Source: a virus. Taken from it: DNA of 64,000 bases. The position numbers and the translations under genes are program-made. Location: positions 1-64,000 of IMG/VR virus record IMGVR_UViG_3300044953_000102, one strand, 5' to 3'. The notes beneath the pieces are model-generated. The model was given only the letters and a program-made list of their open reading frames with translations, searched no databases and had not been told where the DNA came from. Positions 28,047 to 43,217 of the stretch are shown piece by piece (the stretch's first letter is position 1; each line of letters begins with the position of its first letter).

Positions 28047-28364
28047 ATGATAAAAGCAAAAGAATTAAAAGACGATGCAATTTTAGACATCAAAGTCAAC
28101 AAAAGTTATTACTTAATGGCTAAAGCTGCTTCTTTCACAATATTGCAACAGATGAATGTTGTAGAAAAAGGAGAAGAGTATTTTAAGTCAATAATGACTC
28201 AAAAATACGAAGACCTTGATGATCTTCAAAGAGCTTTTTATACTATTCTTCTTCTTCTTGCTGAAATAGAAAAAAGAGCAACTGATGAAAATCTTTATAA
28301 TGAAAAAGAAATTCTAGAACCTGGGGATGAAGGTTATGTAGAACCTACCCCAGATTCAAATTAA
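28047..28364 (+). CDS. Conserved hypothetical protein of 105 residues
   Basis: Helical acidic protein beginning MIKAKELKDDAILDIKV and ending in a tail with ILEPGDEGYVEPTP. I recall close relatives in several Bacteroidota phages, none characterised. It is a single rightward gene inside the leftward block and its last 20 bases overlap the 3' end of the next leftward gene. Confidence 0.8.
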   Translation: MIKAKELKDDAILDIKVNKSYYLMAKAASFTILQQMNVVEKGEEYFKSIMTQKYEDLDDLQRAFYTILLLLAEIEKRATDENLYNEKEILEPGDEGYVEPTPDSN

Positions 28365-28722
28365 ATTGCTCTCTTCCTAGTTCAATAGCAGATTCTATTG
28401 CCATTGCTAATTCATCTTTACTACAATCTTTAAAAGACTTACAGTATTCAGCACCACCTCCGTCATAACACAGACCAGAGTGCTTTTTAACTATAAATTT
28501 CATTTCTTCAAATGTATAGCCAGATTTCTTGGCTAATTCTCTAATACAGGCATGTACTTTAGCTAATTGTGCTAAACTACCTGAATCTAAAGTAAGTCCC
28601 ATAAACACTTCAACTTCCTGACCTTCTTCAAGTTTATCAAGAAATAATTGATAAGAAATCTTTGTGTTTTCATTAATATGAACTAACTTTCCATTAGTTT
28701 TTGTAAGTTTGAAACTAAACAT
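28345..28722 (-). CDS. Hypothetical protein, NinB-like at low confidence
   Basis: 125 residues: a short beta-rich N-terminus, then LAKVHACIRELAKKSGYTFE and EEMKFIVKKHSGLC, and a C-terminal SKDELAMAIESAIELG helix. The order of elements resembles lambda NinB/Orf-type recombination mediators, but this comes from pattern memory only. It starts back to back with the metallophosphoesterase gene. Confidence 0.75.
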   Translation of the reverse strand: MFSFKLTKTNGKLVHINENTKISYQLFLDKLEEGQEVEVFMGLTLDSGSLAQLAKVHACIRELAKKSGYTFEEMKFIVKKHSGLCYDGGGAEYCKSFKDCSKDELAMAIESAIELGREQFNLNLG

Positions 28723-28736
28723 ACGGCATTTTTTAT

Positions 28737-28750
28737 TATATTATTATGTA
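28737..28750 (+). promoter_or_regulatory. Promoter-like element TATATTATTATGTA, first copy
   Basis: This 14-mer is identical to 41782-41795. Both copies lie just upstream of a rightward metallophosphoesterase gene. Its location 4 bases before the ATG here would give an almost leaderless mRNA, so it may instead be an operator or translation signal. Confidence 0.4.
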
Positions 28751-28753
28751 CTT

Positions 28754-29779
28754 ATGACTGAAAAATCTCATAACTCTTTCAAATCAAATACTAAAATTAT
28801 TTTAGAATATCTTGAAAAGTTTCCAAATTCTCCTACTAAAACTCTAGCTCGTAAAATATATCAAGAAAATCAAGCATTCTTTGAAACTTTTGATATTGTT
28901 TATGATAGAATAAGATATTATAGAGGTCAATCAGGAAGTAAGTCAAGAAAAAAAACAGCTAATAAAAAATTTCAACAAGAACTTAAAGTTAAAGTTATGA
29001 ATAATTTTGTATCATTACCCTCTTCTCTTACACAAAAAAGAGGAACATTTACATTTCCTGCAGGCTGTAAGAAGTTAGGTGTTATTGGTGACTTACACAT
29101 TCCCTATCATGATGAAGATGCAATAGAAACTGCATGTGACAGAATAGAATTAGAAGGTGTAGACAGCATCCTAATTAATGGAGACTTACTTGACTTTTAT
29201 CAACTTTCTTTTCATGAAAAAGATCCTAGAAAAGTTCATTTTAAAGATGAAATAGAATCAGGCAAACAGTTTTTTGAATACATCCGTTCTAGATTTCCAA
29301 ATATTCCTATTTATTTTATACCAGGTAATCATGAAAACAGGTTTGAAAGATATCTTAAAATAAAAGCATCTGAGTTACTTGATATGGATGAATTTAGACT
29401 AGATGTAATCCTACATGTTGCAGAATACAAAATAGAATATATTCCATTTAGAACTAAAGTTATTTTTGGTGATTTTATTATAGAGCATGGTGATAAAATT
29501 CCTGGCTCAGGTGGTGTAGTACCAGCTAGAACTGCTTTAATGAAGCTTAAAACTAATTGTATTGTTAATCACTTTCACAAAAGCTCCCAAAGCTCACAAA
29601 GAGTTTACGGGACTAGTGATTCTACAACTATACGTGCTTATAGCCTTGGATGTCTATGTGAACTAGCACCAGACTACATGGAGATAAATGAATGGAATCA
29701 TGGGTTTGCAATACTAACTAAACAAGATGATAAAGTATCTGTTTCTAATTACAAAATAGAAAATAACACGATAGTATAA
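28754..29779 (+). CDS. Metallophosphoesterase with N-terminal helical domain
   Basis: Starts at the ATG giving MTEKSHNSF; an upstream in-frame start would run into the divergent gene. The first ~90 residues are helical and basic, possibly DNA-binding. The calcineurin-like catalytic part has GDLHIPYHD (DxH), NGDLLDF (GDxxD), PGNHENRFE (GNHE), a later His in IIEHGDK and NHFHKS. Such enzymes cleave phosphodiesters, including DNA ends as in SbcD/Mre11, but no partner ATPase gene is seen. Confidence 0.88.
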   Translation: MTEKSHNSFKSNTKIILEYLEKFPNSPTKTLARKIYQENQAFFETFDIVYDRIRYYRGQSGSKSRKKTANKKFQQELKVKVMNNFVSLPSSLTQKRGTFTFPAGCKKLGVIGDLHIPYHDEDAIETACDRIELEGVDSILINGDLLDFYQLSFHEKDPRKVHFKDEIESGKQFFEYIRSRFPNIPIYFIPGNHENRFERYLKIKASELLDMDEFRLDVILHVAEYKIEYIPFRTKVIFGDFIIEHGDKIPGSGGVVPARTALMKLKTNCIVNHFHKSSQSSQRVYGTSDSTTIRAYSLGCLCELAPDYMEINEWNHGFAILTKQDDKVSVSNYKIENNTIV

Positions 29780-30096
29780 TGTTTTTACCAATTACATTTA
29801 AAGACAAAGACGGAGAATATATTGAATACATTAATATTACTCATATTACAAGAACTTCATTTGTAAATCTTATGAATGTTGATGCAGGTAGTAAAGTACA
29901 TTTAAGAACGGGAGAAGTTTTAACAACTCCCGTACCTATGGATATATTACAAACTGAAATAGATGAGTGTTATAAATCTGCTGCAGCAATGATTATGTTT
30001 AATATACTTGCTGAAAAAGCTCAACTTAAAAAATTTACTGGTGGTGTTGATTTAGATAACCCTGAACCTTTGCAATCTGAAAAAGTTGAAGAATAG
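29779..30096 (+). CDS. Hypothetical protein of 105 residues
   Basis: Start overlaps the stop of the metallophosphoesterase by one base, so the two are coupled. It has a beta-rich N-terminus (ITFKDKDGEYIEYINITHIT) and a helical C-terminus. The last 62 bases overlap a leftward gene end. Function unknown. Confidence 0.75.
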   Translation: MFLPITFKDKDGEYIEYINITHITRTSFVNLMNVDAGSKVHLRTGEVLTTPVPMDILQTEIDECYKSAAAMIMFNILAEKAQLKKFTGGVDLDNPEPLQSEKVEE

Positions 30097-40794: not shown

Positions 40795-41235
40795 CTACAA
40801 ATCTTCATTCAATGCAGCATCATCCCCATTTGCAACAGGTTCTTGTATGAATGCATTTGCAGTACTGCTGGATACTTTACCTGCACCAAATACTTTATCT
40901 GCAAGTCTATTTGCAAATGCAGTTGCAAGCACTGATGAAGTTTGCTCCAACATTTCCAATCTTGCAACATCTTTTCTTGTTTCAGATTGGTCTAATGTGA
41001 AGTTACCATCTTGTTTAAGATACAATGGTAGTTCATCTCTAAATGCATCCATATACATTGTATGCATTTGTGGTTCTCCACTTGCAGACTTCCGTGGATA
41101 TTGTTTGAACTGCGGGGAATTAATATATTGTTTAATTTCCTCGGTTGTACCTTTGATGGTATAAATATGGAAGGTTTTACCTTTTTGCTCACCTTCTTTA
41201 CGGATATAGTTCCCACTGTAAACTGCTTTCAACAT
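40795..41235 (-). CDS. Conserved hypothetical protein of 146 residues
   Basis: N-terminal beta-like part (MLKAVYSGNYIRKEGEQKGK, FHIYTIKG) followed by YPRKSASGEPQMHTMYMDAF and a helical acidic tail. Small phage proteins with this layout sometimes bind DNA; no family identified. It has its own terminator and lies second from the divergent control region, so it is probably an early gene. Confidence 0.75.
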   Translation of the reverse strand: MLKAVYSGNYIRKEGEQKGKTFHIYTIKGTTEEIKQYINSPQFKQYPRKSASGEPQMHTMYMDAFRDELPLYLKQDGNFTLDQSETRKDVARLEMLEQTSSVLATAFANRLADKVFGAGKVSSSTANAFIQEPVANGDDAALNEDL

Positions 41236-41311: not shown

Positions 41312-41329
41312 AGACCTCCTAAGAGGTCT
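41312..41329 (-). terminator. Terminator overlapping the 80-residue gene's stop codon
   Basis: AGACCTC TTAG GAGGTCT on the minus strand, with TTCTCTTTTTTTT after it; the TAG stop lies in the loop. Confidence 0.85.
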
Positions 41330-41561
41330 GGATCTTTTTGGCTTTACTGATGTAGATGGATTCATATCCAGCTGCATTAGTATAAAGCCTGTAAATGATT
41401 TCATACAATCCAGGAGATTGGATGGAATCTTTTACCACTGCTTTGGGGATTCTTGGAAGCCACAAATCAGTGTTGACTTTCTTTATAACATAGAGAAAGT
41501 CATGAGACTTACAAGGAAGGATGCTCACTAGAGCTGACTGAGTTGGAAGTTGTGTATTCAT
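41319..41561 (-). CDS. Hypothetical protein of 80 residues, first leftward gene
   Basis: I use the ATG at 41561 (MNTQLPTQSALVSILPCKSH). The frame stays open upstream only because the G+C-rich repeat island contains few stop codons. Content: SHDFLYVIKKVNTDLWLPRI, then YRLYTNAAGYESIYISK, a beta-rich small protein. It is the first gene left of the putative origin. Confidence 0.75.
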   Translation of the reverse strand: MNTQLPTQSALVSILPCKSHDFLYVIKKVNTDLWLPRIPKAVVKDSIQSPGLYEIIYRLYTNAAGYESIYISKAKKIQTS

Positions 41562-41612
41562 AAAATTATATTTTATGATAGGTTCAGGGTTAGCCCATGC
41601 AAGACAGACAAG

Positions 41613-41643
41613 AAACTTTTTTTCCCAGAGGATAAAAAAGTTT
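41613..41643. repeat. AT-rich inverted repeat beside the G+C-rich island
   Basis: AAACTTTTTT (41613-41622) and AAAAAAGTTT (41634-41643), a perfect 10-bp inverted repeat with an 11-base loop. It might be an easily melted element of an origin or a weak terminator; the T8 after it would suit the plus strand. Confidence 0.6.
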
Positions 41644-41650
41644 TTTTTCT

Positions 41651-41732
41651 GGCTGATGCAGACACGTGTGCTGGCAGAGACAGGGGGGTACCCACCCTGG
41701 CTGCGGCTGGGGGGTGGCTGCTGCAGGGGGGT
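41651..41732 (+). repeat. Iteron-like G+C-rich repeats, candidate replication origin or control element
   Basis: Four degenerate copies of a 17-base unit approximated by GGCTGCTGCAGGGGGGT: 41651-41667 (first 11 bases conserved, end degenerate), 41673-41689, 41699-41715 and 41716-41732, the last two directly abutting. The island is about two-thirds G+C in a genome near one-third and has three runs of six G on one strand. It lies where the leftward and rightward gene blocks diverge. Repeats of this sort bind initiators in many phages and plasmids; that use is inferred. Confidence 0.65.
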
Positions 41733-41781
41733 CCACACAATCTCTAATGCAAAATATTTTTGGTGCCAAAGAAAATTTTTG

Positions 41782-41795
41782 TATATTATTATGTA
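41782..41795 (+). promoter_or_regulatory. Promoter-like element TATATTATTATGTA, second copy
   Basis: Identical to 28737-28750 and 19 bases upstream of the metallophosphoesterase start, downstream of the repeat island. A TTTTTG lies directly 5' of it. Confidence 0.45.
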
Positions 41796-41813
41796 ACCCA
41801 TTAAAACAAAAGA

Positions 41814-42740
41814 ATGGAGGTTAAAAAGATTAGTAAGAATATACACAATGTTATTTTTACTGGAAAAACAGCAGAGGTTGCTGTATTGTCAGACATACAC
41901 TGGGATAACTCACACTGTGATAGAAAGCTTTTAAAGAAACATCTTAATTACTGTAAGGAGAATAATATACCTGTGGTTATTGTAGGGGATCTATTCTGTC
42001 TTATGCAAGGTAGAGGAGATAATAGGAGGAATAAGTCAGATATACTCCCGGAACATAATAATGCATTTTACTTAGATTCAATTGTAGATACTGCCGTGGA
42101 GTGGTTTAAACCATATGCTGATATTATCAAGGTAATTGGTTATGGTAATCATGAGACCGGGATAATTAAGTACCAAGAGACTGATGTACTGAAGAGGTTT
42201 GTTGAGATAATGAATCTTAAGTATAATTCTAATATACAGGTTGGAGGTTATGGTGGCTGGATAGTGTATAGTTTACACTATAGAAAAAATGCTGTGTCTT
42301 CATTTAAGCATAAGTACTATCATGGTTCTGGCGGGGGAGGTATTGTGACTAAAGGTGCTTTGAATCTTACTAGAGCCTTAGAGATGTATGAGGATATGGA
42401 TCTATTTACTATGGGACATATACATGAGAACTCTTCCCGTAATGATGTTAGAGAAGGATTATTATATCACAATAGTAAATATAAGATCCAACAAAGACAG
42501 ATCAATCATTGTATTACTGGGACATACAAAGAAGAGTATGGTGAAGGATCACATGGTTGGCATATAGAGAGAGGTGCTCCTCCTAAACCATTAGGTGGTA
42601 GAATAATAACTTTTTCTGTAAAAGATTCAGTTGATGAAGACGGTAAAAATTATATAGAAAAAAAGTGGATAGTAAATCTTTTCCAATTTAATTTATATAT
42701 TTGCTTATCTAGCAAAAAACGGCAAGGGGTCTGGAGGTGA
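41814..42740 (+). CDS. Metallophosphoesterase, first gene of the rightward block
   Basis: 308 residues. Calcineurin-like motifs: LSDIHWDN (DxH), VGDLFCL (GD), GNHETG (GNHE), and MGHIHENS (GHxH). Sequence outside the motifs differs from the other metallophosphoesterase at 28754, and it lacks the N-terminal helical domain. A DNA or nucleotide phosphodiesterase role fits. The last codons run into a terminator hairpin. Confidence 0.9.
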   Translation: MEVKKISKNIHNVIFTGKTAEVAVLSDIHWDNSHCDRKLLKKHLNYCKENNIPVVIVGDLFCLMQGRGDNRRNKSDILPEHNNAFYLDSIVDTAVEWFKPYADIIKVIGYGNHETGIIKYQETDVLKRFVEIMNLKYNSNIQVGGYGGWIVYSLHYRKNAVSSFKHKYYHGSGGGGIVTKGALNLTRALEMYEDMDLFTMGHIHENSSRNDVREGLLYHNSKYKIQQRQINHCITGTYKEEYGEGSHGWHIERGAPPKPLGGRIITFSVKDSVDEDGKNYIEKKWIVNLFQFNLYICLSSKKRQGVWR

Positions 42741-42773: not shown

Positions 42774-43217
42774 ATGAAAAAGTATGACATGGGTAAATAC
42801 GTTCTATTAGCAGGTAATAATGCTACTGAAGTATTTGACCATTATGATGTTAAAGAGATGCATGGGTTAAATCGTAAAGATGCTCAAGCTGAAGAAGTGG
42901 ATAAGACTACTGGCAATGGAGTTTATATCTATGGACTTACTAACTATGATCCTTCAGATAAGAAACTTACCGCAAAAGATCCATACAAACCATTTCTATT
43001 TATTAACCTAGGAACATTCAAGAAGTATAGCCTTACAGAAAAAGCCACAGCTGTTATGCATGAAACCATGCACATGAGTATCTTGCTAAACAACTGGAAG
43101 ATTGCTGATAAGGAAGAAGAAGTTATTACCTTTGCTGAAGATGAGGCAAATAAGATCATTGAGAAATTAGGGTTTAGTTCTAAGGAACAACCTAAGAAAA
43201 ACTTCTTTAAAAAATAA
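42774..43217 (+). CDS. Small HEXXH zincin-like protein
   Basis: 147 residues. The motif MHETMHMSI (residues ~94-102) has the HExxH zinc signature, and EVITFAEDEANKIIEKLG supplies a possible third-ligand Glu/Asp helix. A minimal phage metallopeptidase or a catalytically dead relative; no signal peptide. Stop and next start overlap by one base. Confidence 0.8.
   Translation: MKKYDMGKYVLLAGNNATEVFDHYDVKEMHGLNRKDAQAEEVDKTTGNGVYIYGLTNYDPSDKKLTAKDPYKPFLFINLGTFKKYSLTEKATAVMHETMHMSILLNNWKIADKEEEVITFAEDEANKIIEKLGFSSKEQPKKNFFKK

Follow-up and report, generated by a model that had tools for sequence, protein, structure and literature searches.

A conserved four-part element in the early/late divergent gap of crAss-like phages, a candidate packaged genome end

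Between the leftward and the rightward gene blocks of the phage genome studied here lies a short island of G+C-rich DNA, and the question arises which function this sequence fulfils at the very point from which the two blocks diverge. The window analysed, a stretch of 64 kb in total, constitutes the first part of a virus record of 114,943 bp (IMGVR_UViG_3300044953_000102) that is related to crAss-like phages; the terminase of the window phage is 22-27% identical to those of Crassvirales and Flavobacterium phages. The island (41651-41736) has a G+C content of 71% compared to a mean of 31.7% for the record, and its best 60 bp (75% G+C) are the richest in the complete 114,943 bp. The preliminary description had considered the island a candidate origin of replication, made up of four iteron-like 17-bp units next to an AT-rich 10-bp inverted repeat at the border of early and late genes. 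Much of this picture is borne out. The island is indeed about twice as rich in G+C as the genome, which is more than expected by chance, the arms of the inverted repeat, AAACTTTTTT (41613-41622) and AAAAAAGTTT (41634-41643), are exact, and the gene blocks diverge here as stated, with DNA polymerase, a DnaB-like helicase, primase and UDG encoded in the leftward replication block as opposed to an endolysin-like amidase, terminase, portal and major head protein in the rightward block. The genes closest to the gap are the following:

41319-41561, minus strand: first early-side gene, 80 aa, without family match; its start was moved inward from a longer GTG ORF (41319-41846)
41814-42740, plus strand: first rightward gene, metallophosphoesterase-like (phrog_7339, DNA repair exonuclease)
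42774-43217, plus strand: conserved right-hand neighbour, 147 aa, with HExxH motif

The 17-bp units are repeats only in part. Those starting at 41699 and 41716 form a true tandem pair with 2/17 mismatches, zero such pairs being expected by chance, and TRF reports 2.1 copies for 41698-41732. The remaining two have diverged, the unit at 41673 differing from either member of the pair at 4/17 positions and the unit at 41651 from the other three at 5-7/17. The notion that the repeats are conserved in related phages did not survive alignment of the gap. The 17-bp units are confined to the relatives L002, L007, L009 and L010; they are lacking in L003 and L008 even though the neighbouring gene is ~90% identical, and the G+C-rich element is present without the 17-bp repeats in L003, L008, L012, L014, L015 and L016. 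The iteron reading was rejected on the grounds that the duplication is private to the closest relatives:

41698-41732, plus strand: private 17-bp tandem duplication (units 3 and 4), overlapping motifs B and C described below; absent from L003, L008 and L014-L016

Instead of representing origin repeats, the G+C island is part of a conserved element of about 110-125 bp, which on the late-sense strand comprises, in this order, H (a hairpin rich in A+T), motif A (GGGGGTACCACC), B (a G-run) and motif C (GGnYCCACCAC). In the window its parts are located as follows:

41613-41643, no strand assigned: H, AT-rich inverted repeat with exact 10-bp arms and an 11-bp loop, as judged from its fixed distance to A in relatives and from the arm-swap test
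41684-41697, plus strand: motif A, GGGGGTACCCACCC (family GGGGGTAcCaCC), near-invariant at 9 positions in dereplicated copies
41709-41716, plus strand: motif B, G-run GGGGGGTG with variable flanks
41728-41740, plus strand: motif C, GGGGTCCACACAA (family GGnYCCACCAC), as judged from the A-C spacing

Direct BLASTn comparison of the window gap with phages gave 0 matches. Relatives were gathered by a search with the neighbouring phosphoesterase, followed by a search with the HExxH protein and two DNA patterns, and 61 distinct element sequences were collected by these searches. Part of the set was chosen on motif A, so that the selection itself accounts for some of the conservation of A within it; neither C nor H served as a criterion. 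Motif C begins at A+44/45 in 60/63 copies, B lies near A+27, and H is centred about 56 bp left of A, its distance from A in relatives being near-constant at ~50 bp. H was furthermore recovered independently as the strongest early-side leader motif (EM score 442 vs 304-329 for shuffled sequences), and its own arms pair better than swapped arms, with p ~1e-4 on the late-sense (plus) strand and 0.016 on the other strand. In some genomes the start codon of an early gene occupies the place where H would sit.

The element is present in dozens of environmental crAss-like contigs. Each genome contains one copy, always in the early/late divergent gap (11/11 genomes examined), and its distance to the genes on either side varies between genomes. 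Wherever flanks were readable in the first set of relatives, from which chance pattern hits were excluded, the genes to the left point leftward, those to the right point rightward and the orientation of the element is constant. All copies checked point in the direction of the late genes, including those of cr1_1 and cr113, the terminase genes of which reside on the element strand. A phosphoesterase gene adjoins the element in L012, L016 and L011, while in most other relatives (L017-L081) it is located elsewhere and other genes are situated directly upstream; the element does therefore not travel with the phosphoesterase. In crAss001 the element is found at position 133, inside the divergent gap of that phage. 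The window phage, crAss001 and the relatives of the latter have in common motif A (GGGGGTAGGACCCC in crAss001), the G-run, the CTCAT motif, equal spacing and a host-type promoter on the late side only; crAss001 differs in motif C, which reads TTGGTGTnnnnnCTCAT. Its Steigviridae kin carry the element with variable A loops (GTAGGA, GTGGAA, GAATAT), motif A taking the form GGGG-n4..7-CCCC in Steigviridae and Suoliviridae. In phi14:2, likewise a member of the Steigviridae, GGGGATACTCCCC...GTGGGGGA occurs at the corresponding place. In the Suoliviridae cr1_1 and cr113 the skew minimum coincides with the motifs GGGG-n-CCCC, G-run and TTGGTG...CTC, which lie on the same strand as the terminase gene. 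The element was not found at the skew minimum of cr127 (Crevaviridae) or Flavobacterium phage Fpv20, and is doubtful in cr130, where only two G-runs are present at this position. Among viral contigs the pattern GGGGGTANGACC...GGTGGGG retrieved crAss001 only, besides apparent chance matches. A literature search, the reach of which excluded most subscription papers, yielded no description of the element, a real and conserved cis element that is apparently new.

Evidence for its function comes from the cultured Bacteroides phages DAC15 (MT074136) and DAC17 (MT074138), members of the Steigviridae whose genomes were deposited as linear and for which an exact direct terminal repeat (DTR) is annotated in the record (1-1842 in DAC15, 1-1839 in DAC17). 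These phages resemble the window phage in location of the element at the early/late divergence, in orientation and in the order of the motifs GGGGGTATAACCCC, GGGGGG and ACCCACACC; they differ in loop and spacer sequences, do not have the 17-bp duplication, and H is not established there. In DAC15 the region ACCCACACC matches C only loosely. The right boundary of the annotated repeat is situated inside the element, at A+47 in DAC15 and A+46 in DAC17, in the context GGGGGTATAACCCC...GGGGGGACCATGAGTTAAT with TAGAACCCACACC following immediately after the boundary, and therefore points to a genome-end or packaging site. As C starts at A+44/45 in the other lineage, a cut at A+46/47 would fall on the first bases of C. 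The chance of finding the boundary in a target of ~65 bp within 99 kb is ~7e-4, whereby DAC15 and DAC17, 98.6% identical over 3.3 kb, have to be counted as a single observation; both belong to one genus. DAC15 bears two copies of the element, one per terminal repeat, as expected for DTR. We put the probability that the element marks the terminase cut, and with it the packaged genome end, at about even. The annotated repeat ends in DAC15 and DAC17 presumably correspond to physical cuts, the terminase would bind the motifs of the element, and the window phage may use the same cut site:

41729-41730, no strand assigned: predicted terminase cut position, derived by homology with DAC15 and DAC17 (A+46/47)

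If this assignment is correct, terminase would recognise A, B and C in replicated DNA, be it concatemeric or circular, and would cut at around A+46, between B and C, thus generating the terminus that bears the early genes. The stretch left of the cut would become the direct terminal repeat, and H could possibly aid its duplication. In T7-type end processing, inverted repeats near the genome ends help to duplicate the terminal repeat, and DTR ends of the T7/N4 type combine a defined end near the early genes with an inverted repeat close by. The likeness of the element to such ends is one of layout and not of demonstrated sequence relation; a small terminase subunit was not found. The record itself (114,943 bp) was found to contain no terminal repeat. 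Contig ends lie within 200 bp of A in 5/30 cases as compared with 1.6 expected, a small excess in contigs that were not sampled at random. In favour of a genome end of this type, PhageTerm independently assigned crAss001 to DTR-type packaging, the repeat being reported as 576 bp long (PMC6235969). Counting against a cut at the element, a pac-type headful call has been made for crAss002 (Intestiviridae) (PMC8042965), and tikkala, a relative of crAss001, is reported to have no DTR (PMC10569736); the same isolation paper from 2023 describes three phages without DTR (PMC10569736).

The layout that had been taken for an origin does represent a genuine cis-acting locus, with the AT-rich inverted repeat as one of its parts, but neither the iterons nor an origin specifically are supported. 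An origin at which an initiator occupies the G+C-rich motifs and the AT-rich repeat melts appears quite unlikely to us. The element shares with iteron origins the presence of G+C-rich motifs adjoining AT-rich DNA, and H is conserved; it differs from them by the lack of conserved direct repeats, those of the window being private to the closest relatives, and a Rep-type initiator as known from plasmids was not found among the scanned proteins of the replication block, in which many small proteins are unscanned or without match. Cumulative GC skew, to which the preliminary description had pointed, reaches its minimum no more than about 1 kb from the element in 11/11 genomes (at 41,093 in our record, analysed as a whole). 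On the other hand, the skew maxima are located at gene convergence and not opposite the element, on unequal arms of which the early one comprises 27-48% of the genome (27:73 to 48:52). The skew therefore mainly reads gene orientation and, being confounded in this way, is not independent evidence for an origin and was rejected as proof of one. ORFs read against the early arm exhibit a coding GC3 skew of -0.17±0.04 vs +0.27 for co-directional ones, a reversal that suggests a strand-based component, though some of the inverted ORFs are probably spurious and read-through transcription could mimic the effect. In AT-rich genomes a G+C island is often the sign of a structured RNA, and the fixed length of the element as well as the higher stability of the plus strand in RNAalifold (-17.7 vs -10.0) would be in line with a small structured non-coding RNA, which we nevertheless regard as very improbable. 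Compensatory pairings noted by eye (CCACC/GGTGG, GGTGGG/CCCACC and stems flanking A) were lost upon arm-swap permutation of 35-47 dereplicated copies. Arm-swap tests revealed no covariation for A itself, between B and C or between A and C, the best value (p ~0.005, around B) being post hoc; A-C covariation is also absent across families, and within the element H alone is supported by arm swapping. Motifs A, B and C are therefore conserved as sequence, which favours a DNA site over an RNA fold. Host promoters reading into the element are not enriched from either side, and Rfam provided no credible match, mir-208 and others scoring far below the gathering score.

Since promoters of host type are present on the late side and lacking on the early side, it can also be put forward that the element is an early promoter or control region, at or next to which an injected virion RNA polymerase (RNAP) starts leftward early transcription. 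This polymerase perhaps reads hairpins on the late-sense strand, that is the template strand of the early genes, and the arm-swap support for H is stronger on just this strand. TAnnTTTG, the Bacteroidetes-type -7 box, occurs 59 times on the late side vs 10.4±3.9 times in shuffled sequences (35/42 genomes) and 4 times vs 4.5±1.8 on the early side reading into the early genes, which is no enrichment. A full host-type promoter is present 71-255 bp on the late side of A in 7/11 genomes, whereas the nearest one on the early strand is at least 3 kb away. According to RNA-seq of crAss001 the first-expressed genes are those on the early side (PMC8375218), and transcription of the early genes by virion RNAP has been reported for phi14:2 (PMC8375218, PMC10136315). 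The promoter pattern fits early transcription by an injected virion RNAP, the promoter of which may overlap the element. We still hold such a promoter to be unlikely as the explanation of the element: a fixed unit of ~110 bp with several motifs is long for a promoter, no mapped transcription start coincides with the element, and the distance between A and the early gene ranges widely, between about 46 bp and several hundred bp. A simple pattern for the RNAP catalytic motif found no match in the giant ORFs of the window, but it failed to detect the known RNAPs of crAss001 and phi14:2 as well. The late side of the gap in the window contains a further feature:

41755-41790, plus strand: region of a possible late promoter of host type (TTTTTGG ... 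AATTTTTG/TATATTAT), kept in the nearest relatives; in relatives TAnnTTTG is enriched on this side

A late promoter is often found just right of C, as would suit an operator or activator acting on it; the distance between C and the promoter is not fixed, unlike the A-C and H-A spacings, and we assign very little likelihood to this role.

In the human gut the crAss-like phages rank among the most abundant. Their packaged genome ends, the start point of the injected polymerase and their mode of replication are unsettled, the latter being called unknown in a review from 2023 (PMC10136315). As a conserved single-copy landmark the element provides a precise coordinate at which genome ends, polymerase start and replication can be tested. 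It also offers a natural start point for circular assemblies, and its pattern can be used to locate the early/late junction in uncultured members. It is conceivable, albeit quite improbable, that one and the same element combines the terminase cut site, the virion-RNAP entry site and early promoter, and the start of replication from the resulting transcript. If true, packaging, first transcription and replication would be wired to a single site of 120 bp.

Several minor observations concern the surroundings of the element. The palindrome TTTGGTGCCAAA is located beside TTTTTGTATATTAT just before the rightward gene (window 41754-41790), is strongly conserved in the nearest relatives and may represent an operator plus promoter. 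A second A-like sequence, GGGGGG(G)TAC, occurs 100-130 bp right of A in the relatives L242, L220, L198, L100 and L261, in several of them with TTGACAT just upstream, and may be either a second, incomplete copy of the element or some other signal specific to the phage. For crAss001 (L130) gp2 is annotated on the minus strand at 279-680; this annotation is probably spurious because it lies opposite the coding sequence of the HExxH protein annotated in relatives, which is broken here by stop codons. Within the leftward block of the window, ORFs of at least 60 aa are sparse between 38400 and 40800, and three rightward genes are found at 28047-30096, one of which (28709-29779) encodes a calcineurin-like phosphoesterase. 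Inverted ORFs of ~105 aa similar to those at 28047-30096 recur in related genomes.
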